DNA of 64,000 nucleotides from Ignavibacteria bacterium (GCA_028714695.1 JAQTLX010000011.1:62001-126000); one strand, 5' to 3'. Shown: positions 19,427 through 33,689, counted from the first letter of the stretch. The notes: a model not told the origin generated them from the letters alone. A program made the numbers and translations.

Positions 19427-22400
19427 TCAATTACCGACTACCACTCTAACGCCTTCGGAATGACTCGCGAATTCGGGTGCATACATGCATTGTATCGAAG
19501 TAATACCGTTTGAGAAATCTCCTTTTAAGTTGACCCTCAAGTCATACTCAAATACATACGTTCCTTTCCGCAGGTAATCGAAAAAGAAATATGTTGCGGC
19601 ATCACGTGTCGATTCATAGTAACCCAGACCATCCTGATATTTATATGCAGACAGTACATTAATCGGTTCAAATCCGGCAGCCCGCAAATCTTTCATCTGC
19701 ACGAATTCCATATCGCGGTCAGTCCGTAATTCAATCCTGACGCGAACCTTATCCCCGACTTTAAGATTTTCTTCAACAGGTTTCAGGGCCTCGCCGGAGC
19801 CTGTATTTTCCACCACAAATAGTTTCTTTTCAATCTTCAGGTTTGTTTCTTTTTTATCAATTTTATCCAGATCTTCAAAATATTGCCAGTATAGCGAACC
19901 CCAACTAATACCCGAGGGCGTTTTTCTTGATACTGTAACGTTTCCCATTTCCGGTTTTATCTCTCCCCATTTCCAGTTTGTTTTGATATACCCTGTCCCC
20001 GCTTCCGAGTCTTTCATATCCACTATATTATTCCCGACATTTATTTCCGGAAGCATGTCAGCGACAAGCAAATTATCGCCATTGAGAAGCAAAGCATATA
20101 CCGCTTCGACGGTAGCCTTTGTAGTTTTCCAGTCATTAGTCTGTTTGTTTTTAAGGAGCCAGACTCTCATATCATCCACGCTCTTTTCGTCTTTAGCGAC
20201 TTCATCGAAAACTTCAATCATCAATGCCTGCGTTTCAATAGGCGCTTCGTACCAGTAGTATCCGCTGTTGTTCGATTTCCAATACATGCCGAGGTCTTCG
20301 GAGTTTGTCGAGCGTTCTTTTAATGAGTTCACAATAAGTTTCGGGACAACGGTATCTCCAAACCTGTTCAACGCGAGCGCTATCATTCCTTCAGCATACA
20401 ATCCCCTTTCGTTCCAGTATTCTGCCGCCTGACCGAGGTAATAATCGAAAGCCTCTTTGTTCTTTTTGTCGATTTCCACATTCATAAAGAAACTCCGCAT
20501 GTACAAATAATGGATTTGTGAATAATCCAGATGATTATTTCCCAGAATAACATTCCCTTTCCTTGCCTTACTTTGCAGATAATCATAATCTTCCCCAATT
20601 TGGTTATCCAAATATTTTATCGCATCTCTTACCATAGTCATATCGTCATCGTAATTTCTGATTCCAAGTTTATAAAGTTTTCCGAGTCCTGCGGCAATAT
20701 GCTGTGTAATATATCTGCTTTCCATGCCTCCTTCAAACCACGGCCAGCCGCCGCTGCTCGCCTGCATTTTTTTAAGTTTCCTCATAACCCTGTCGAGTTC
20801 ATTGCTCATTCTGTTGAGTTCAAACAAATATCCGATACGCAGTTTCCTCTCATTGTTGTTTTTCGCTTCAATAACCCACGGGGTTTCCTGAAGCATAAGG
20901 CTTTTCAGTTCTTCGTTTTTTTCTAAATCCGAAGTAAGAGCATTCGAACCTGTTTCTTTCCATTTGTTAAAAATCTCTTTTATTTTCGGATTAGAATTTA
21001 CAATATGCGAAGCGATACTGTTTGCATAAACGCGGCTGAACATCTGTTCGGCGCACTCATGCGGAAATTCCATAAGATACGGAAGGCTAAGAAGCGCATA
21101 CCAGGCGGGATTTGACGTGAATTCCAGTGTCAGGCAATAATTTGTCCTTGTATTGGAATTATTGTTTATCAATTTATCCATTGAGAACTTCTTAGGCTCA
21201 TTTCCTCTGACATTCATAGGCATCGTTTCGGTTACAAGCATTCTGTTCGTAAGCACGGGGAGGACAGCTTCTTCGCCGTCGGAAAAGTTCTCCGCTTTTG
21301 CAACTATTTTATAGTCAACTGCCTCGAATCCATATGGTACACGAATTTCCCATGAAACAACTGCGCTTCCGTCTTTTTTCACATCAAAACGTTTTGCCGG
21401 TTCCGTATTATTAAACCACGTGTCAATATTTTTCATTGTCCCAACATCTGAAAGTACTAATAAAGCGTTTCCGATCAGGTCTTTTTCGGATAAATTATTT
21501 ATCTTTGCCGAAATAACAACTTTATCGTCTTCTCTCAGGTAACGAGGGACATTAGGCGTCACCATAAGTTCTTTCTGAGTCACGAATTCTTTTGTAATCA
21601 TTCCAGATTTAAGGTCCTTTGTATGTGCAAATCCTATGAACTTCCATTTTGTCAGCGCTTCCGGTATTTCGAACTTAATTGTTATATCTCCGTTTTCACC
21701 GGTTCTTAAATCAGGTTTAAAGAAAGCCGTTTCTCTGAAATCTTTCCGCGCTTTTATATTCGCAATTTCATTATTCTCTACATCATTTCCGGGATTCTTT
21801 TTTAACTCCACTTTATCTAACGGGTTATTGGTTGCAACACCATCGATAATGATTATACTCTCACTTGACCTGCCGCCGCGGATATTGATATTTACCGATT
21901 GATTTATCGTACTCGCATATTTTGTGGAAATCTCTTCCTGGCTCACTAATCTTCCGGATTGTTCCACTTCAATTCCTTTTCTTTCCGCTTCAATAACTAT
22001 TTCCTCAATACGATAATTAGGTTGAAATAAATCTATATATTTAGAAGTATTGAATCTGTTCAACTTATCATATTGTATCAACTCAGGTTTACTTCTTTTA
22101 TTCCAATCCGTCGAGAGTATATCCGCTTTAACAAGCATATATTTATTAGGCCAGTACCAGGAAGAATTCATATAATAATGAAAATACTTATTTCCCGGAT
22201 CGAAATACCAGTCATGTTTTGTGATGTCATCGAGTGAAGCATCATAAAGGGTTGCGACCATTTCGGCGTCCGCATCAATCCCGTTTTTATCTTTAATTTT
22301 TATTGTCCATTCTTCATTGTCACCCGGGTGAACTTTATTCCTGAACGTATTAAAACTTATATCAAGCATTTTGTTTGTGTAGGGCACAGAAACATAATCA

Positions 22401-25400
22401 CCTTTCGAAAAGAATCTTCCTGCCTTTACAAAAGTAAAATTAAAAGATACAGATCCCCTATACGATTCCTTTACAGGCAATTCAATTAATCTCTGAGAGG
22501 CGTCAAAAGTCAACCATTCACTATTTATCAGACCATCCATTCCCTTAACTTCAAAAAGAACTTTTGTATTTTTCATCGAAGTACCGAAAAGGATTTTTGC
22601 GGTTTCTCCGGGTTCATAGTTTCTTTTTTCGAATACTAAGTTTTCGATTGCCGAATATGGCATATCCGTTTCACCGGTACTGTAAAGGTCGAAATAAACA
22701 ATTTCTTTTACATCAATTCCGAATTTGTCTTTTGCCGATATCTCTGCAACGTATTTTCCCTGATTCCACACTTTCATGACGTTTAAATCAACGACCGAAT
22801 CCGTTTCGGTATTGAATGAATGTTCGAAAGTCAGCATTTCCTTGCCCCATTTTGTAAAATCACTTTCATCGTAATATTCATCGTATGGAAAATATCCGTA
22901 GTACTCATCCCTTGTCATTACAAACTTATCGGGTTTATCCCACAATCTGTCTCTGAATGCTCTTTCCGGACTTTTCAATTTATAAATTTCTATTTTCCCG
23001 GAAGCAGGTTCCCGCTCACCGTTAAGATTTGTAGTAATTAGTTTGTGGATATTATCTTCATTTTTGTTCACTGTGTTTGCAATATCCAGATATATTATAA
23101 GTGAATTATAACCGACAGATATCCAGGTCTCTTTTGAATGTGTCTCTCCGTTTATATCAGTAACGTCAGCCGTTACTACGTAATTGAAATAAGGCTTTAA
23201 TTCTGCTTTTACCGTTTCATCAGGGAAGGCAGTGAAGTTTATATCGAATTCTCCCTTGTCGTCAGTTTCCGTTGTTCCGTATTGTATTACAGTATTATTA
23301 CTTTTCAAATTGTTATAATAACCGGAACGCCAGGAATAGCACCAATTCGGATAACGGGCACTCCTTACGATTTGGTATTTTACTTTGGCTGCATTAATAT
23401 TCACACCGGAAAAAGATATTGCATGTCCTTTAACGGTAACATTTTCACCCAATTTATATGCGCCTTTTACGGGATTAAACGCAACTTCAAATTTTGGTCT
23501 TTTGTAATCTTCAACCGAAAAATACTCTTCACCGTTATCGGGAATTGTTCTGATACTCATTCTGCCGTTTCGGCCTGATACAGGCAAAGTAAAACTGCCG
23601 TTGAAAGTCCCGTACTCATTAGTAAGAAAAATCTGTTCGGATATTTTTTGATCATTTGCATCATACAATGCGACGCGTACTTCATTATTAGTTTTAATCC
23701 CACAAGTATCTTCATTACCTGCCAGGACTATACCTTTAAAATACAACGTCTGACCGGGTCTGTATATTGAGCGATCGGTAAAGAAATAAGTTTTAGTAAA
23801 TCCATCAGGCTTCGTATCTCTTTTTCTTGTTCTCCACACATATTCTTTATCATACCAGATATTTTGACCATTACCAAAACTATACCCTTTTGTTGAAAGA
23901 ACCTGTCCTTTATGACTTATTTCAAGATAATACGACAACGATTCATTTCCGGGATTAAATTTGAAATAACCGTTTTTATCGGTTACAAATTCCTCAGTTT
24001 TAATGAATTTATTCTGCATTTTGTCGTAATCATATTCGGATTTTATTATTTTTACCGTGGCACCGGCAAGAGGATTACCCGTTTCTCTGTCAAGTACATA
24101 ATACTCGTTACCATTGTTCTCTCTTTTGATATAACTTATCGAATTCATATTTATCAGAGCGTATGCAACCGCGTTTTCTTTACATGAAAAGTTCTCGTCG
24201 GTACCAGCGAGCAATATATACTCTCCGCCCGGCAAAGATGGAATTTTGATTTCCGTTTTGTGAATCCTGAAGTCATCCGATGCAGGAAGATTTACGGAAA
24301 AACTTTGCACGGGAATTCGTGTTTTTATACTGTCGATTATTTTATTTACAAAATCGGTATTCTTATATCCGGATTTATATTCGCTAAACTCATCAAGTTC
24401 GGCATAACTTGTTTTTAATATTTTAAAATACAGTTTGTTTATATTTCGATATGTTACAAGCGACCTGAAAGGTTTATTCGGTATGTTGTATTCTTCCAGT
24501 GACAAACCAAGCGACTTCTCCTCAATTTTCGTAATCAAGGCACGGCAATAATCGGCCCCTTCAGATTCAGGAAATGAGGCGATCGCATCTTCACAAATTT
24601 TATGCGCTGTTTTAAATTTATCGTTAATGTTGTCTTCAGAATCGTAAACGTTACCATTCTTATAATATTCGCTTGCAGAGTAATATTTCACCATTGTCGA
24701 ATACGGATGTTTGGAATATTTTTCTGCCAATTTTTCGAGAGTGTTCAGATAGAGATTTGTTTTAAGCGGATTAACCGAGTTATCGTATACAAATTTCAGC
24801 CTTATTAAATCGGCATCTAAAAGAGCATCAATATTTCCATCTTTCAGATGAAACCTCAATATTTCCTGAAGTGTCTTTAGCGTATAGAAATGGAATGAAA
24901 ATGTATCTTGTGTTGCAATATTGATTTGGGAAAATTGTTCGGCATCCGAAAGATAAAGCGAATCATTTAAAAGAAACTGCTCGGCGGGTCTTGTCAGACT
25001 CGTCGTTTTGTCCGAAAAGAATCTTACGGCTTTGAACGCCAGAAAATCATACAGTGTCGGTCTGAACTTTCTGCCGTTTGGAACCACTTTGTCGTAAACA
25101 TACTCATTTAAAAGGTCGTTATAATTTTCTATGTTTATTTGCTGAAGTCTTTCCGGTTCGGCAATCGAATTGAGATAATATTTAATCATCTGATTAACAA
25201 CCAAAGAAACATCCCATGTTTTTATATCGTCAAGTTTTTGATTTGCTACCTGAGTTCTTTCAAGCAAATCATACTTATTAGTTTCATAGTAAGACCAAAA
25301 CATATCGCCTATCAAAGAACTTAAAAACTGTTTTGCCGGGAATTCAGCGCCGGCTTCTTCGTCCATCATTTCTTTTAGGCTGAGAAAAAATGAATCGTTT

Positions 25401-25642
25401 CTGTAATAATCCGTAAGTTTTACCTTATATAACATTGCCCGGACATAGTTGACAGTATTGTTTTCATTACTTGCCTTCGTACAGATTTCCTGCACCACTT
25501 GCATCGAGGACTTTGGAAGTCCGTAGGCTTTAAGAGAATCGGCATTTCTCCACATCGATTTATAATAATCTTCATCGGATTGGCCTAAAACTACGCCGCA
25601 TAAAAGAAATAAAAATAAGAAGACCCTAATAGTCATTTTCAT
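19427..25642 (-). CDS. Giant alpha-2-macroglobulin family protein with TonB-plug-like insert
   Basis: 2071 residues, exported (signal peptide ending near LLCGVVLGQ). After a helical N-terminal region come macroglobulin domains (YRPGQTLYFKGIV near 620), a bait-like stretch, and the A2M domain (KPDLRTGENGDITIKFEIPEALTKW near 1300). The thioester motif PHECAEQM has cysteine at about 1530 and glutamine at 1533, so the covalent trap chemistry is kept; the alpha-alpha toroid follows to about 1800. A segment at about 1217-1287 (SVNINIRGGRSSESIIIIDG, then VATNNPL) resembles a TonB receptor plug. Bacterial homologues guard the envelope against proteases. There is no neighbouring pbpC gene, the usual partner in Proteobacteria. 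Confidence 0.92.
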   Translation of the reverse strand: MKMTIRVFLFLFLLCGVVLGQSDEDYYKSMWRNADSLKAYGLPKSSMQVVQEICTKASNENNTVNYVRAMLYKVKLTDYYRNDSFFLSLKEMMDEEAGAEFPAKQFLSSLIGDMFWSYYETNKYDLLERTQVANQKLDDIKTWDVSLVVNQMIKYYLNSIAEPERLQQINIENYNDLLNEYVYDKVVPNGRKFRPTLYDFLAFKAVRFFSDKTTSLTRPAEQFLLNDSLYLSDAEQFSQINIATQDTFSFHFYTLKTLQEILRFHLKDGNIDALLDADLIRLKFVYDNSVNPLKTNLYLNTLEKLAEKYSKHPYSTMVKYYSASEYYKNGNVYDSEDNINDKFKTAHKICEDAIASFPESEGADYCRALITKIEEKSLGLSLEEYNIPNKPFRSLVTYRNINKLYFKILKTSYAELDEFSEYKSGYKNTDFVNKIIDSIKTRIPVQSFSVNLPASDDFRIHKTEIKIPSLPGGEYILLAGTDENFSCKENAVAYALINMNSISYIKRENNGNEYYVLDRETGNPLAGATVKIIKSEYDYDKMQNKFIKTEEFVTDKNGYFKFNPGNESLSYYLEISHKGQVLSTKGYSFGNGQNIWYDKEYVWRTRKRDTKPDGFTKTYFFTDRSIYRPGQTLYFKGIVLAGNEDTCGIKTNNEVRVALYDANDQKISEQIFLTNEYGTFNGSFTLPVSGRNGRMSIRTIPDNGEEYFSVEDYKRPKFEVAFNPVKGAYKLGENVTVKGHAISFSGVNINAAKVKYQIVRSARYPNWCYSWRSGYYNNLKSNNTVIQYGTTETDDKGEFDINFTAFPDETVKAELKPYFNYVVTADVTDINGETHSKETWISVGYNSLIIYLDIANTVNKNEDNIHKLITTNLNGEREPASGKIEIYKLKSPERAFRDRLWDKPDKFVMTRDEYYGYFPYDEYYDESDFTKWGKEMLTFEHSFNTETDSVVDLNVMKVWNQGKYVAEISAKDKFGIDVKEIVYFDLYSTGETDMPYSAIENLVFEKRNYEPGETAKILFGTSMKNTKVLFEVKGMDGLINSEWLTFDASQRLIELPVKESYRGSVSFNFTFVKAGRFFSKGDYVSVPYTNKMLDISFNTFRNKVHPGDNEEWTIKIKDKNGIDADAEMVATLYDASLDDITKHDWYFDPGNKYFHYYMNSSWYWPNKYMLVKADILSTDWNKRSKPELIQYDKLNRFNTSKYIDLFQPNYRIEEIVIEAERKGIEVEQSGRLVSQEEISTKYASTINQSVNINIRGGRSSESIIIIDGVATNNPLDKVELKKNPGNDVENNEIANIKARKDFRETAFFKPDLRTGENGDITIKFEIPEALTKWKFIGFAHTKDLKSGMITKEFVTQKELMVTPNVPRYLREDDKVVISAKINNLSEKDLIGNALLVLSDVGTMKNIDTWFNNTEPAKRFDVKKDGSAVVSWEIRVPYGFEAVDYKIVAKAENFSDGEEAVLPVLTNRMLVTETMPMNVRGNEPKKFSMDKLINNNSNTRTNYCLTLEFTSNPAWYALLSLPYLMEFPHECAEQMFSRVYANSIASHIVNSNPKIKEIFNKWKETGSNALTSDLEKNEELKSLMLQETPWVIEAKNNNERKLRIGYLFELNRMSNELDRVMRKLKKMQASSGGWPWFEGGMESRYITQHIAAGLGKLYKLGIRNYDDDMTMVRDAIKYLDNQIGEDYDYLQSKARKGNVILGNNHLDYSQIHYLYMRSFFMNVEIDKKNKEAFDYYLGQAAEYWNERGLYAEGMIALALNRFGDTVVPKLIVNSLKERSTNSEDLGMYWKSNNSGYYWYEAPIETQALMIEVFDEVAKDEKSVDDMRVWLLKNKQTNDWKTTKATVEAVYALLLNGDNLLVADMLPEINVGNNIVDMKDSEAGTGYIKTNWKWGEIKPEMGNVTVSRKTPSGISWGSLYWQYFEDLDKIDKKETNLKIEKKLFVVENTGSGEALKPVEENLKVGDKVRVRIELRTDRDMEFVQMKDLRAAGFEPINVLSAYKYQDGLGYYESTRDAATYFFFDYLRKGTYVFEYDLRVNLKGDFSNGITSIQCMYAPEFASHSEGVRVVVGN

Positions 25643-25773: not shown

Positions 25774-26907
25774 TTACTCGATTCTTAATCCAATCCTGTT
25801 CCATCTAATAGAACTTATTTTATGAACGGGCATAATCCAATTTATGTTTGGGTCCCACGACCAGTAAATTGTACTTACTTTTCCGACAATCTTATCTTCG
25901 GGAATAAAGCCATTATATCTGCTGTCCACAGAAACATCCCTGTTATCGCTTATAAGAAAATAATAATTATTTTCTACTTTATAATTTCCATCACTGATTA
26001 TTTTATCATCAACATATATAGTTCCGCCGCTTTTCTTTTCGCAATTATGTCCGTCAAATTCGATAATCTGTTTCCACAGCACATAGTTATCCTGAGTAAT
26101 ATTAATAACATCGCCTTTTTTAGGAATATAGATTGGGCCGTAATTATCTTTGTTCCATTTATATCCTTTGGGGAATATTCTATCCTCGCCTACATCCTCG
26201 GGGACTACAGGCGTTATGTATTTAACGTTTGCTGAATTCCGATAAAGTTTTCCGCTGCAATATATCGACCGGTTTTTAATCAGTAGTGTATCCCCGGGAA
26301 GTCCTATACATCGGCTAACGTATTTTACACCGTCAGTAGCATTTTTATTATTCAGTTCTGTCCGATTAAAAACCACAATGTCGTCTCTTTTGGGGGAGTT
26401 ATATCTGAACAAATATTTTTCGGTATAAGGTATATGCAGCCCGTAACTGCTCTTATTAGCGATTAAATAATCGCCCGGAAGTATTGTATTTTCCATGGAA
26501 ACAGTTGGAATTACAAAGCCTTCCATTACATTTGATCTTATTAGCACGGAAAAAAGAAAAACACTGACAATATAAATCAATATATATACATACCACTTGT
26601 TAAACCATTTAAGGGCAAATATTTTATGGTTTCTTGAAAATATGACGCTGTCAAGTATTACAAATAAAGTCAGCAGAACAGTTAAGAAAAATATCGCCGG
26701 ATAAAAAACAATCCCAAGAACTATGAGAAGTATGTAGGCAAAATAATAAATGAAATAAACCAATATACCTCTTTTTAAATCACCGGCATAGATATGTCCG
26801 AGGCCTGGACACAGATAACTGAACAGAATTATCAGGAATAAATTTCTTTTAAGAGGCGCCTGTTCGTTCGAAACCGCGTTTTCGATTACAATTTTATTCT
26901 CATCCAT
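25774..26907 (-). CDS. lepB: Signal peptidase I homologue with extra N-terminal membrane region
   Basis: 377 residues. Residues 22-90 contain additional membrane helices with CPGLGHIYAGDLKRG, a TM2/DUF5683-like motif, then another helix near 107-123. The S26 peptidase boxes follow: PTVSMENTILPGD with catalytic Ser137, RDDIVVF, KYVSRCIGLPGD, and SDNRDVSVDSRYNGFIP. In E. coli LepB the residue aligned with Ser198 (YVSRC versus YIKRA) is the catalytic Lys145, so the general base looks absent; Lys195 is three residues away. Either the enzyme uses another base, or it is a non-catalytic paralogue. An unstarted spacer with hairpins lies upstream. Confidence 0.85.
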   Translation of the reverse strand: MDENKIVIENAVSNEQAPLKRNLFLIILFSYLCPGLGHIYAGDLKRGILVYFIYYFAYILLIVLGIVFYPAIFFLTVLLTLFVILDSVIFSRNHKIFALKWFNKWYVYILIYIVSVFLFSVLIRSNVMEGFVIPTVSMENTILPGDYLIANKSSYGLHIPYTEKYLFRYNSPKRDDIVVFNRTELNNKNATDGVKYVSRCIGLPGDTLLIKNRSIYCSGKLYRNSANVKYITPVVPEDVGEDRIFPKGYKWNKDNYGPIYIPKKGDVINITQDNYVLWKQIIEFDGHNCEKKSGGTIYVDDKIISDGNYKVENNYYFLISDNRDVSVDSRYNGFIPEDKIVGKVSTIYWSWDPNINWIMPVHKISSIRWNRIGLRIE

Positions 26908-27450: not shown

Positions 27451-27598
27451 AAAAATCCATTAATTTTTAAACAACGAACAATTTAGTAGTTTCGATTCCT
27501 GTGACAGGAAGCAGTATAAAAGAATTTCTGTTCATTTAATTACATTACTAACTAATGATTAGGTTCTTAAGATGACCCAGAGGGTACCCCCCGATAAA

Positions 27599-27644
27599 AG
27601 CATTCGGGAATGACAATCATAATATCAGCATTCGGGAATGACAA
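27599..27644. repeat. Direct repeat of AGCATTCGGGAATGACAA, 28-bp period
   Basis: Identical 18-base units at 27599-27616 and 27627-27644 separated by ten bases. The core ATTCGGGAAT is itself a near palindrome. It lies just beyond the stop of the zinc-ribbon gene. Confidence 0.6.
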
Positions 27645-27651
27645 ATGTGTT

Positions 27652-28257
27652 TTATATAGAGAGACCTATTATTGCGTCTTTCAGATTTCCGTTTGAAAGT
27701 TTATAAAAAGGTATTCCGAGAATTTCGTATGAGTCAACGTTGATTTCGTATCTGAATGTTTTCATTGTGTCGCTTTTATCCGCTTCAAATGATATGAGAA
27801 GAAACTCCGCAATTTTCATTGCGTCTTCTTTCCCGTATGCGAAGCCCGTTACTTTGACGTTGAATTTCTGCGGCGAAGGTACGGGGTCTTTAACTGTAAA
27901 TGCAGTTGCCATTTCCTTCATGTTGTCAACGGGCATTCTGAATGCGGGAATGTAAAACTTGAGTTTGCCTCCCGAGCCGTCATGACCGCCGAAGAGATTT
28001 TTCAGAAAGCCTCCCGACGATGTTCTTTCGAGAATTGTCACACTTGTTTTCAGTATCCAGAACGGTTTATAAATCAGTTCGCCCTCTGCAGGTCTTACGG
28101 GTGAAGCGAAGTTGACCTCGATGGGCTGCAACACACCGTCAACTATTTCAAAACCGCTGCCGCAGTTAGTGCAGTAAGTTACGAAATCGTTTATCTCAAC
28201 TACCAAACCGCTTCCGCAGTTTTTACATTTTATTGCTTCTAATTTGAATTCTGCCAT
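27652..28257 (-). CDS. Zinc-ribbon protein, soluble (module member 5)
   Basis: 201 residues. N-terminal zinc ribbon C11-x2-C14 ... C29-x2-C32, followed by a beta-rich domain (about 45-201) containing KPFWILKTSVTILE and KLKFYIPAFRMPV. No membrane helix. The ribbon spacing (14 residues between knuckles) equals that of the two genes before it, and the phrase FYIPAF/FYVPRK is shared with the 377-residue protein, so the three appear related. Last gene of the minus-strand module; starts three bases after the preceding stop. No function is established; a regulatory or scaffolding role at the membrane is inferred from context. Confidence 0.8.
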   Translation of the reverse strand: MAEFKLEAIKCKNCGSGLVVEINDFVTYCTNCGSGFEIVDGVLQPIEVNFASPVRPAEGELIYKPFWILKTSVTILERTSSGGFLKNLFGGHDGSGGKLKFYIPAFRMPVDNMKEMATAFTVKDPVPSPQKFNVKVTGFAYGKEDAMKIAEFLLISFEADKSDTMKTFRYEINVDSYEILGIPFYKLSNGNLKDAIIGLSI

Positions 28258-28260
28258 AAT

Positions 28261-29394
28261 TTAATCACTGTTAAAAATTGAACCAAGAACCGCACCGACA
28301 ACTGCCGAAGCGGCAACGTTTTTTGCAATTCCGACGACTTCGCCGGTGGTACCGCTGCTCATTGATTGTGATATTGTAACGCTCTTTTCATCATCGCCGA
28401 TACCCGTTCCCTGTTCGACTTCACCTCCGTACCTGAATTTTTTATATGCTCCTCTGATTAAAACAATTCCGATAATAAATGCTATAATGAATACAGCGAA
28501 ACTGAATTTCGCGGAATTTCTTGCAATCATGAACGCGCCGAAAAATGTTGTCAAAAACATACCTGCCGCCATGCCTATAATTCCGACAACCGCTCGGTAT
28601 AGATTGTTCCCGGGTGCTTTTCCGTAGCAGATTGTTCCGTCATCCCCGTCGACCACTACCTGATAGACTCTGTTCGCGAAAGAATATCTGACTACCCACA
28701 AAGGATAATAAACTACAGATACACTTTTCCGGATTAAATCTATATGTTCGAATGTAACCCTGTCAACTTTTGCAGACGCTCTTGCTTCATTTTTGAAATG
28801 TTCGAGCGCGGAATCAAACGCATCTTTTTCGGATGATACTACATTAAAAAGCATTCCGTCTCTCTGAAGAGTTTCCGCGTTCATCGGCAGCATTTCATCG
28901 CCTGTCAGGTTTACGTGTTTCACTCCGAGTTCGGAAACTTCGCATGCCGAATAAGTGCGGTCGAATGTTGTCATAATCCGTTTTTCCACATCTTCATAAT
29001 ATGTCTCTGTGCTGTTTCCGGAACTCCGCGTTTTTTCTTCCTGTCCGAATATCCAGCCGACTGCATCGGCGGATACGCGCCAGTAAGGAATGTAGGCAAG
29101 GTACGCTTCGGTTATTTTCGAATTCGCTTTTAGACCTTTTGCTTTTGCGAGTCCGCTTCCCAGCCAGTTGTACGCTTTGTTAATGGCGTCTTCACGTTTC
29201 AGTTTCCTCGGGACATAAAACCGCATCGAGCCTGCTAAATCTTTGGCGACAAGAAGAGTACCGCAGTATTTGCAGTTCAGAGTTCTTACGCCTTCCGATA
29301 TATCCAGTTCTCCGCTGCACGAAGGACATGTAATGCCTTTTATTACTTTTTCTTTTTTCAGGCGTATAGCCTGCTGAGTAATTGTTTCTTCCAT
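28261..29394 (-). CDS. Zinc-ribbon membrane protein, YdjG-like (module member 4)
   Basis: 377 residues. A short helical lead (1-20) precedes the zinc ribbon C23-x2-C26 ... C41-x2-C44. Then a domain opening with MRFYVPRKLKREDAINKAYNWLG and containing AYIPYWRV and YYPLWVVRYSF, and two close membrane helices (about 275-325). The last 40 residues are small and hydrophobic (AASAVVGAVLGS), possibly membrane-associated. The layout resembles the zinc-ribbon membrane protein of the B. subtilis ydjFGHI operon, which acts with a PspA paralogue and an SPFH protein. That likeness is inferred from architecture and neighbours. Confidence 0.78.
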   Translation of the reverse strand: MEETITQQAIRLKKEKVIKGITCPSCSGELDISEGVRTLNCKYCGTLLVAKDLAGSMRFYVPRKLKREDAINKAYNWLGSGLAKAKGLKANSKITEAYLAYIPYWRVSADAVGWIFGQEEKTRSSGNSTETYYEDVEKRIMTTFDRTYSACEVSELGVKHVNLTGDEMLPMNAETLQRDGMLFNVVSSEKDAFDSALEHFKNEARASAKVDRVTFEHIDLIRKSVSVVYYPLWVVRYSFANRVYQVVVDGDDGTICYGKAPGNNLYRAVVGIIGMAAGMFLTTFFGAFMIARNSAKFSFAVFIIAFIIGIVLIRGAYKKFRYGGEVEQGTGIGDDEKSVTISQSMSSGTTGEVVGIAKNVAASAVVGAVLGSIFNSD

Positions 29395-29398
29395 AATT

Positions 29399-30217
29399 CT
29401 AAACTTTTTTTGCTATAAAATATGCCAGTATAATTAATGGCACTGCTGCAGCGCCGTAGCCGAACACTTTAATTATCTCTCCGAGAAGCAAAGGATTGTA
29501 ACTTCTGCCGCCTATCGCGAAACCTATCACAAAAGATAAAATACTTACGAGTAAAAAGGTAGCGATGCTAAGACCGAACAAAATTTTGAAAGGTACTTCG
29601 CTCTTTGCAGGCCAGATGTTTGCATACACCATGCCCGAAGAGGCTTCAACCATAGCCGTATACTGCTTTCCGCCGAAAGTATAATAAAACTGGTAGAAAG
29701 GTATATGCACGAGATTCGATTCGGCAATCGAGTCCTGAGATACTCCCGTCTGCTCAAGCCAGTTCCTCGCATTATCGTAGAGTACATCGGGCTGAACGAA
29801 CTGTTTTTCATCGAACTCTTTTTTGCTGAATGATTTCATGCTTCCCGCAGGTATCTGAACGTTTTTAATTTCAGAGACTGAAGTTGACGTTGCAGGCTGA
29901 AGATAAATTTTATCGGAGCCGGCGTCATTTGTTTTGAAATACCACAACGGAAAATAATAAAAATTCTTTGCCGATATCGCGGCGAGTTTATCAAGATCTT
30001 TTACCTGAAAATTTCCTGCCATCCAGCGCCGGAGGTTTCCTTCCGCCTGTTCTTCGTTGAAGTTCGATGCAATAACAAAGCGGTTTACAACCTTGCTCTT
30101 GTCGATGTAAATAGCCGAACCGCAGAACTGGCATTCGAGAAACTTGCCATCGGGTGGTATATCATTCTCGCCCGCACACTGGGGACAAACAATCCTGGAT
30201 TGCGTTAATTCCTGCAT
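29399..30217 (-). CDS. Zinc-ribbon membrane protein (module member 3)
   Basis: 272 residues. Zinc ribbon C11-x2-C14 ... C29-x2-C32, then FVIASNFNEEQAEGNLRRWMAG, equivalent to the FYVPRKLKREDAINKAYNWL stretch of its downstream neighbour. Aromatic motifs YYFPLWYFK and VHIPFYQFYYTFGGKQY are shared too, then two C-terminal membrane helices (about 205-232 and 245-270). Evidently a paralogue of the 377-residue protein, lacking its middle extension. The stop is four bases before the next start. The hairpin repeat at 30245-30331 separates it from the SPFH gene. Confidence 0.78.
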   Translation of the reverse strand: MQELTQSRIVCPQCAGENDIPPDGKFLECQFCGSAIYIDKSKVVNRFVIASNFNEEQAEGNLRRWMAGNFQVKDLDKLAAISAKNFYYFPLWYFKTNDAGSDKIYLQPATSTSVSEIKNVQIPAGSMKSFSKKEFDEKQFVQPDVLYDNARNWLEQTGVSQDSIAESNLVHIPFYQFYYTFGGKQYTAMVEASSGMVYANIWPAKSEVPFKILFGLSIATFLLVSILSFVIGFAIGGRSYNPLLLGEIIKVFGYGAAAVPLIILAYFIAKKV

Positions 30218-30244
30218 ACTAATTTATTTACTTGTTCGTTTTTT

Positions 30245-30331
30245 TAGAAACCGTCAGCCACGGCTGATTTTCAATTAATACGGTTTATCTTTAATCTTCC
30301 ATGTACCCACGACTAAAGTCGTGGGCTGTTC
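30245..30331. repeat. AAACCGT...ACGGTTT / CCCACGACT...AGTCGTGGG element, short copy
   Basis: First part (30248-30286): AAACCGT and ACGGTTT terminal arms around an inner CAGCCACGGCTG hairpin. Second part: CCCACGACTAAAGTCGTGGG (30306-30325), a strong palindrome. Both parts recur in the same order at 56099-56181 with compensated changes. It sits between the SPFH and first zinc-ribbon genes, where it could also act as a partial terminator or RNA stabiliser. Confidence 0.7.
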
Positions 30332-30362
30332 CTAAAAGATTCTATTACGCGATATAATTAAA

Positions 30363-31358
30363 TTATAATTTAGATAGTAAATCTTTTTTCTTTGCGTCGA
30401 ACTCTTCGGGAGTAATCAAACCGTTTTCTTTCATCTTGCCGAGTTTTTCTATTGTTGACATTATTTCGTCCGCTGTCATCTTCGGCTGCTGCTGTTGTTG
30501 TCCGCCCTGCTGGTTCACTCCCTGCGTCATATTTCCCATCATATTTGCCATCATCATACCCGCGCCCATACCTGCGCCCATACCTGCCATACCGCCGCCG
30601 CCTTCATTTTCGGCTGCTTTCTCAAGAGACTGCGCTGCTTTGAATTTCATATACGAATCAAGATTACCGACTGCGCCCATCGAACTTCTTTCGTTGATTT
30701 TTTCCTGCACTTCTTCAGGCGGAACGATGCCTGCTATGATGAAGTCCGTAAGTTCGATACCGTGCGACGTAAAGAAATCCGTTACTGCGGCTTTAACGCC
30801 CGTTTCAATCTGCGGATAAAACTGTGCGAGGTCGAAAATGGTTTTTAGATTCTGACCGAGTACGGTGTTCAATCTCGATACTATTCCGTCTCTCAGATAA
30901 TCCTCGATTTCGTTAGTCGTAAACAATCCCTGTGTCGATACCAATTCCATCATGAATTGTTTTGCATCTTTTATTCTTATTGAGAACTTACCTGAAGCCC
31001 GCAGTTGGACGAATGTCAATTCCGCGTCCCGGAAATTAATCGGTGATTTTGTTCCCCATTTCAGGTCGATGAATTTTTTCATCGAAATAAAATACACCTG
31101 CGCCTGAAACGGAGACGTGCCTCCGAAAGGAAGGCTTATAAGTTTTGTAAGGAAAGGAATATTTTCTGTTGTTAACGTATGTCTTCCGGCATCGAATTCA
31201 TCAAGGACTTTTCCATCCCTGTAGAACAAGGCTTTCTGTGAATCCTGTACAATCAACTGTGTTCCGAGTCTGAATGCAGCGGAACCGTCCTGAGGTTCGC
31301 GGTGAACCATTGTTCTTCCTGTTTCGTCAAAAAATTGGATTACGTCTATTAATGCCAT
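30363..31358 (-). CDS. SPFH/band-7 protein with SHOCT tail, YdjI-like (module member 2)
   Basis: 331 residues. Starts [22 protein letters not shown], followed by the SPFH core ([34 protein letters not shown] ... [14 protein letters not shown] ... [11 protein letters not shown]). A coiled helix follows, a glycine/methionine-rich linker (about 252-280), a Q-run, and a SHOCT-type helical hairpin at the C-terminus ([21 protein letters not shown]). This order matches the virion-core-like YdjI family, which in B. subtilis recruits the PspA paralogue to the membrane with YdjG. No membrane helix; attachment would be through partners or peripheral. 67 bases after the preceding gene. Confidence 0.88.
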
Positions 31359-31425
31359 TTTCTTTAAATGTTAAATTTTAAATTATAAATTTCAAATTGA
31401 TTTTCAGTTAAAAAAATCCCCGGGA

Positions 31426-31950
31426 TTACAAAACATTCAGTATGTTTTCCCTGTCATTAAACTTTTGGATTAATTCGTCAAGAGCCGTTCCTATTTTTGC
31501 AATTACATCCTTTATATCGCCGCCCGGCTTGCTTGCATTCTCAAGTTCATCAAACATGCCGCAAACATTGTCAACGGAGGAAAGAAGCGCTTCGTCGAAA
31601 CCGTACAATTGCGCAAGTTTATCCTCTTTCACTTTCACTACATCGAATGCGCCGCTATAACCTCTTGCAGCGGATTTGAATTTTGCAATTGCAGTTTCGT
31701 TTTTCTTGTCGATTTTATCTACGCCCGCGGTTTCGAATAATCTTCCGGCAGATGACAGATTAGAAACGGTATTTGAAATTTTAACTTTATTGGTTTCCAG
31801 TTTAAGCGCCAGTTTATTCCGGATAATTGTATCAAGTTCGCGTGAATTGTCCTTGTTTACGTATCCGTCATAGCCGGGAATGATTCTTTTCATCTTTTCG
31901 AAGAAAGATTCGTTACCTTTAATCCGGTCAAGGTTTGATTGTAAATCCAT
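31426..31950 (-). CDS. Small helical protein, first gene of the SPFH/zinc-ribbon module
   Basis: 174 residues, no signal peptide or membrane helix, predicted almost wholly alpha-helical with charged heptad-like stretches. The conserved-looking core IIPGYDGYVNKDNSRELD then a basic/acidic helix is followed by two more helices. It occupies the position held by a PspA paralogue in ydjFGHI but has no recognisable PspA sequence and is shorter (PspA is near 220). The start is supported by AAAGGAGAG seven bases upstream. A 470-base spacer precedes it, so the module promoter is likely there. Confidence 0.75.
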   Translation of the reverse strand: MDLQSNLDRIKGNESFFEKMKRIIPGYDGYVNKDNSRELDTIIRNKLALKLETNKVKISNTVSNLSSAGRLFETAGVDKIDKKNETAIAKFKSAARGYSGAFDVVKVKEDKLAQLYGFDEALLSSVDNVCGMFDELENASKPGGDIKDVIAKIGTALDELIQKFNDRENILNVL

Positions 31951-33192: not shown

Positions 33193-33627
33193 TCAAGACC
33201 TCAGTTTCAGATAATCATCGTCTTTGGGGAAATTAAACACAATTGCCGCTGCGGTTATTAAAAATCCTGCAGCCGCAAGAACGAGATTCTGGTTGATAAA
33301 AAGATTTGACATTATGCATATAAGCCCCCCTAAATCGCACAAACCGAAAGGAAGAACATGCGAATTTAAATACTGTGTCGCGGCATTTTGCAAAGTGACT
33401 TTTTGGAATAATTTTTTCTTAAGGAAAACCGACGATGCGCAAAGAGCGACGCAAAAAATAAAACTGAAATAGTTAATATATTCCAAATCCTTGTTTATGT
33501 TATCCTTTGAGACTAATATACCGAATACAAAGACAAGGAATACACCCAGGAGTATGGCTATGCCGAGAAATCTTGTTTTGCGCGCCATATACAAGACATC
33601 AATTTCTTTTACAGTATCGTTATTCAT
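33193..33627 (-). CDS. Hypothetical four-helix membrane protein
   Basis: 144 residues from the ATG at 33627 (the open frame extends to 33660 but would enter the ruvB promoter). Four hydrophobic segments: FLGIAILLGVFLVFVFGIL, YINYFSFIFCVALCASSVFL, FGLCDLGGLICIMSNLF and NLVLAAAGFLITAAAIVF. No family recognised. Divergent from ruvB with 62 bases between starts. Confidence 0.65.
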   Translation of the reverse strand: MNNDTVKEIDVLYMARKTRFLGIAILLGVFLVFVFGILVSKDNINKDLEYINYFSFIFCVALCASSVFLKKKLFQKVTLQNAATQYLNSHVLPFGLCDLGGLICIMSNLFINQNLVLAAAGFLITAAAIVFNFPKDDDYLKLRS

Positions 33628-33689
33628 AATTAATAATTTGTTTGTCAATAAATTTAACATTATTTTTATTAAAATTTTATGTCATTTCG

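Follow-up and report, generated by a model that had tools for sequence, protein, structure and literature searches.

The first gene product of a five-gene unit that is conserved in Ignavibacteria, a protein without detectable relationship to PspA by sequence, tracks one clade of SPFH proteins. We call this protein LEAD, and the unit is LEAD-SPFH-ZR1-ZR2-ZR3 (LEAD, ZR1, ZR2 and ZR3 are working labels). SPFH proteins are widespread, and their partners and purposes are mostly not known. In Bacillus, PspA is a membrane-guarding protein. LEAD follows its SPFH clade in at least two phyla and is kept when the genes are unlinked, so that, as a candidate partner, it offers a handle on what YdjI-type SPFH proteins recruit. 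We regard the unit as a new form of a known type, the YdjI-type SPFH system, with an uncharacterised non-PspA family at its core. A literature search found no paper on the five-gene module.

Organization of the locus

The window, which is the whole stretch of 64,000 nucleotides that was analysed, lies on contig C11; the genome has 3.85 Mb and is 96% complete. All five ORFs of the original prediction were confirmed, with their order and coordinates; they run head to tail on the minus strand from 31950 down to 27652 (Table 1), with intergenic gaps of 67, 145, 4 and 3 nt from LEAD to ZR3. The unit is set apart from its surroundings, as the next listed genes lie ~470 nt upstream and ~400-740 nt downstream. 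Neither a stress regulator (ORFs and Pfam) nor an HTH, kinase or cyclase output domain (Pfam and NCBIfam) was found among the five proteins.

Table 1. Features of the five-gene unit, in transcription order, and the inverted repeat within it
Feature	Description	Position	Strand	Basis or remark
LEAD	174 aa; soluble helical protein, predicted four-helix bundle, amphipathic N-terminal segment, IPGYDGY motif	31426-31950	-	ORF, AF2, NF047596
SPFH	331 aa; Band_7_1, no TM segment, Gly/Gln-rich linker, C-terminal SHOCT	30363-31358	-	Pfam, hydropathy
ZR1	272 aa; zinc ribbon (CxxC-x14-CxxC) at the N-terminus, then a middle body and two TM-like segments at the C-terminus	29399-30217	-	
ZR2	377 aa; zinc ribbon, body (low-confidence model), C-terminal TM-like segments	28261-29394	-	
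ZR3	201 aa; soluble zinc-ribbon protein	27652-28257	-	ORF; after ZR2 wherever the contig goes on
Palindrome	20 nt; CCCACGACT-AA-AGTCGTGGG	30306-30325	.	in the 145-nt SPFH-ZR1 gap

The palindrome is a perfect 9-bp inverted repeat, present as a single copy in the window with 0 expected by chance, and could be either REP-like or an attenuating hairpin; an Rfam search of the unit's region gave no match. Two near-identical 23-nt direct repeats with a AGCATTCGGGAATGACAA core lie immediately downstream of ZR3 (27594-27644). Several neighbouring genes were also noted. A 155-aa membrane protein at 33193-33660, with sub-threshold similarity to NfeD_membrane/TMEM164, also occurs upstream of LEAD in two genomes of the same genus. 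The gene at 25774-26907 encodes a signal peptidase I whose N-terminal membrane extension has weak similarity to DUF6677, and the 2071-aa protein encoded at 19427-25642 resembles, by eye, a large alpha-2-macroglobulin-type secreted protein.

The five genes are a conserved unit

We read 22 LEAD loci of the window's family with their flanks. SPFH is directly downstream of LEAD in 20 of them. One exception is a contig that breaks inside LEAD, the other half of which runs into SPFH-ZR1-ZR2-ZR3; at the second, a PPK2-like gene lies between LEAD and the contig end, where an SPFH fragment starts. The complete five-gene order is present in 15/22 loci, the remainder mostly running off contigs, and the genes that flank the unit vary within the family. 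Thus, the order is kept across the window's family where contigs allow, which confirms the predicted module as a conserved unit. In a sister family (15 genomes), LEAD sits elsewhere, unlinked, yet LEAD and SPFH are both retained, and SPFH-ZR1-ZR2-ZR3 is complete in 9/10 loci that we read, with the contig ending in the tenth. In these genomes, LEAD is often followed by an ORF of ~110 aa and then by a TonB-dependent-receptor-like gene (e.g., L056).

The neighbourhood survey found that the genes co-occur in related genomes. Among 59 relatives, 35 have both LEAD and SPFH, two have LEAD only (one of these a 64%-complete genome), none has SPFH only and 22 have neither (Fisher p 3e-14, a guide only, as phylogeny is ignored). 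With the NF047596 profile, 37 of the 59 were found to have LEAD. Seven genomes of the window's family, one of them a single contig, lack both LEAD and SPFH. In a sample of the window's own phylum, Bacteroidota, LEAD was found in 3/296 genomes, all in the window's order.

LEAD is a helical protein distantly related to a Leptospira family

LEAD matched no Pfam family. Against NCBIfam it aligned over its full length with NF047596 (residues 3-171 of LEAD with 4-173 of 175), at E 7e-7 and 29.3 bits. NF047596 is the LIMLP_15305 family, which is uncharacterised and named after Leptospira LIMLP_15305 (NCBIfam). The cut-off of this family is 210 bits; the window's LEAD is therefore a relative of the family and not a member, despite the full-length alignment that it has in common with it. 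The same model scores higher with acidobacterial LEADs than with the window's LEAD. Alignment of 23 LEADs from the order revealed 38 invariant columns, around the IPGYDGY and GYSGxFD motifs.

AlphaFold2 modelled LEAD as a four-helix bundle (pLDDT 81, pTM 0.75), the N-terminal region being less certain. Amphipathicity along the protein peaks at residues 14-24; this N-terminal feature is pronounced in Ignavibacteria and less so in Acidobacteriota, which counts against the explanation that we favour below. With the LEAD model, Foldseek gave nothing better than E 0.1, and the top match of VIA-align was IncA at Z 12.2, under the stated noise level for helical bundles. Pfam, NCBIfam and the structure searches thus assigned LEAD to no known unrelated family.

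LEAD and PspA

The original prediction that the lead protein lacks PspA sequence held, as PF04012 gave no match with LEAD and HHalign of LEAD with the PspA profile gave a probability of 0.4. That LEAD is nevertheless a very divergent homologue of PspA, Vipp1 or ESCRT-III is highly improbable: its gene position, its helical content and its amphipathic N-terminal segment would fit such an origin, but these profile results, the prediction of a compact four-helix bundle and the lack of any PspA, Vipp1 or ESCRT-III chain among the structure matches listed from Foldseek and VIA-align, although the last is not conclusive, all speak against it.

PF04012 found nothing in the window's own genome and no match in 44/44 genomes of its order, and it matched in 6/15 outgroup genomes. 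The absence from the order suggested at first that LEAD had replaced PspA. In Acidobacteriota, however, the two proteins coexist, PspA being found in 5/27 genomes with LEAD and 42/172 without it (p 0.63). Since this rate is not significantly lower, LEAD is not a strict substitute for PspA, and replacement was dropped as an explanation. LEAD might also be a membrane-protecting effector of a new class, with no relation to PspA, Vipp1 and ESCRT-III, that its SPFH clade brings to damaged inner membrane. We consider this unlikely; if true, an SPFH recruitment platform would have been paired at least two times with different helical effectors. LEAD also makes it possible to ask whether PspA and a helical protein of different structure can replace each other, here in an order with PspA detected in 0/44 genomes.

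LEAD-SPFH pairs in Acidobacteriota

A scan of public genomes for LEAD returned 34 loci of the Ignavibacteria type and one in Blastocatellia (Acidobacteriota), at 28% identity, where a Band_7_1-type SPFH gene starts 16 nt after the LEAD relative. This pair led us to compare the Acidobacteriota as a whole, reading neighbourhoods with all ORFs kept, as antisense ORFs mask SPFH in GC-rich genomes. A cross-phylum LEAD profile found the protein in 35/199 acidobacterial genomes. SPFH is immediately downstream of LEAD in 25/28 loci and is separated from it by a Toastrack gene in one more, and four further pairs were found with a better LEAD profile. SPFH is also present in 31/35 of the genomes with LEAD. 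Of the other four genomes, one has a locus that runs off a contig end, and in three (L225, L226, L227) with no A5-type SPFH a divergent LEAD lies beside secA, which we count against the favoured explanation. LEAD-SPFH in L145, L151 and L163 likewise has secA upstream.

One acidobacterial locus, L142, has the complete LEAD-SPFH-ZR1-ZR2-ZR3 order with overlapping or abutting genes, and another, L161, has LEAD-SPFH-ZR1 and a ribbon protein as far as the contig end. A protein with a zinc ribbon and a Toastrack domain (DUF4097, E 6e-22) is encoded between LEAD and SPFH in L141 (6924-8393), and a DUF4178 zinc-ribbon protein follows SPFH in L157; each of these neighbours was seen once among the acidobacterial loci. 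A second LEAD homologue of one genome (G199, L136:7865-8518) is fused to an N-terminal zinc ribbon and lies away from SPFH, which also counts against the favoured explanation. Two ABC-transporter-like genes come next.

LEAD tracks one SPFH clade

The assignment of the second gene to an SPFH protein with a SHOCT tail was borne out, as it scored above the curated cut-offs of both Band_7_1 (PF13421; E 4e-56, 190 bits, cut-off 24) and SHOCT (E 5e-9, 36 bits, cut-off 27). Hydropathy showed no TM-like segment in it. The tail is SHOCT in 18/18 Ignavibacteria; in Acidobacteriota it is a zinc-ribbon array in 20/23 and SHOCT in 2. A tree built from 65 SPFH proteins places all the LEAD-linked ones in one 52-row clade (support 100/100), in which 3/52 rows have no LEAD nearby, and the 13 SPFHs without LEAD form the other side of the tree. 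Thus, LEAD tracks one SPFH clade. With midpoint rooting, the Ignavibacteria SPFHs are a single group nested among the acidobacterial ones, so transfer between the two lineages is possible.

ZR1 and ZR2 are paralogues and share only a ribbon with ZR3

The CxxC-x14-CxxC motif is present with identical spacing in ZR1, ZR2 and ZR3; none of the zinc-ribbon models in Pfam reached its cut-off with these proteins. Across 12 sequences, one of them acidobacterial, the four Cys of ZR2 do not vary. By hydropathy, ZR1 has two TM-like segments close to its C-terminus and ZR2 has two plus a weaker C-terminal one; LEAD and ZR3 have none. ZR1 and ZR2 align with an HHalign probability of 97.7 over 192 columns, and are paralogues, in agreement with the prediction of two zinc-ribbon membrane proteins of shared design followed by a soluble zinc-ribbon protein. 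A duplication of all three ribbons had also been proposed. The ZR1/ZR2 pair agrees with this; ZR3, however, aligns with ZR1 only over its N-terminal 41 residues (HHalign probability 52), and this falls to 2-5 when the ribbon is left out. The three-way duplication was thus rejected for ZR3, which has the ribbon alone in common with the other two, and because the similarity is confined to the ribbon, the FYVPRK/FYIPAF motifs, which had been thought to tie in ZR3, are not significant.

The body of ZR2 was modelled with low confidence (pLDDT 66) as two units of a helix and a long beta-hairpin, and a fold search from this model gave no usable match; that these repeats are PepSY/YpeB-like is a guess. 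A defence-system reading was rejected, PADLOC having returned only one marginal match, for ZR2.

The ribbons raise the question of whether the unit is a platform for signalling in response to zinc or redox state, with the ribbons of ZR1-3 as sensors of metal or oxidants and LEAD as the output. Three ribbons of identical spacing and the zinc-ribbon SPFH tails of Acidobacteriota are consistent with it, as is, very indirectly, an ncRNA beside a Leptospira LIMLP_15305-family member that is raised in peroxide (PMC7567364). Because the five proteins contain no HTH, kinase or cyclase output domain, we think that such a platform is quite improbable.

Comparison with known systems

The original prediction likened the unit to the B. 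subtilis ydjFGHI operon, and this likeness stood in part. In the B. subtilis pspA-ydjGHI system, YdjI is a protein without TM segment that carries a zinc finger at its C-terminus, and YdjG/YdjH are required for its recruitment to the membrane (PMC8581546). Both systems have a soluble helical lead gene product, membrane proteins, zinc ribbons and a TM-less SPFH encoded with TM proteins, the last judged from hydropathy and conserved linkage. The ribbon tails of the acidobacterial SPFHs are like that of YdjI, and Toastrack and DUF4178 also appear there. On the other hand, no counterpart of the TPM-domain protein YdjH was found among the five proteins with Pfam, the lead gene is not pspA in the window, SPFH is second in the unit and last in B. 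subtilis, and its tail in the window is SHOCT. YdjG has zinc ribbons and a YpeB-like domain; the window has two paralogous ribbon membrane proteins and one soluble ribbon protein.

Zinc-ribbon and band-7 proteins belong to PSP contexts, in which Toastrack is a recurrent partner (PMC11237479). The L141 Toastrack and L157 DUF4178 operons resemble these band-7/SHOCT, Toastrack and zinc-ribbon contexts but lack PspA. In four other acidobacterial loci (L211, L213, L222, L223), a Band_7_1-type SPFH is likewise followed by a ZR1-related ribbon protein, but these SPFHs belong to a separate clade without LEAD. Therefore, the pairing of SPFH with ribbon proteins is broader than the five-gene module.

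Proposed role of the unit

We favour, at about even confidence, the explanation that the products of the five genes form a single scaffold at the membrane in which LEAD is the partner of SPFH, most likely for envelope integrity. SPFH, which lacks its own anchor, would oligomerise on the inner membrane, at its cytoplasmic side. ZR1 and ZR2, with ribbon and body in the cytosol and a C-terminal TM region, may anchor it, by analogy with YdjG/YdjH for YdjI. LEAD, modelled as a four-helix bundle, would be a soluble partner dedicated to its SPFH clade, and its amphipathic N-terminal segment may dock onto the SPFH oligomer, the membrane or both. By analogy, LEAD would hold the place that PspA has in the pspA-ydjGHI system, with ZR3 as a putative cytosolic accessory adaptor. 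Our data show how the genes are linked, where they co-occur, the SPFH clade that LEAD keeps to, the domains present and the lack of likeness between LEAD and PspA; we infer that the proteins form a complex, that SPFH is recruited to the membrane in this way and that the unit acts in envelope stress, the last from the likeness to pspA-ydjGHI. The Toastrack/DUF4178 partners and YdjI-like ribbon tails in Acidobacteriota support a PSP-like scaffold beneath the membrane.

The same architecture could instead serve as an SPFH-based scaffold for protein quality control or cargo, with no specific role in envelope stress and with LEAD as a cage subunit or cargo adaptor. LEAD and SPFH are found together also where their genes are not linked, as stoichiometric partners should be, zinc ribbons and SHOCT are docking modules of a generic kind (PMC3581485), and the unit includes no stress regulator. 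We regard this alternative as possible but doubtful, since the Toastrack and DUF4178 neighbours and the YdjI-like SPFH indicate PSP-type contexts (PMC11237479).
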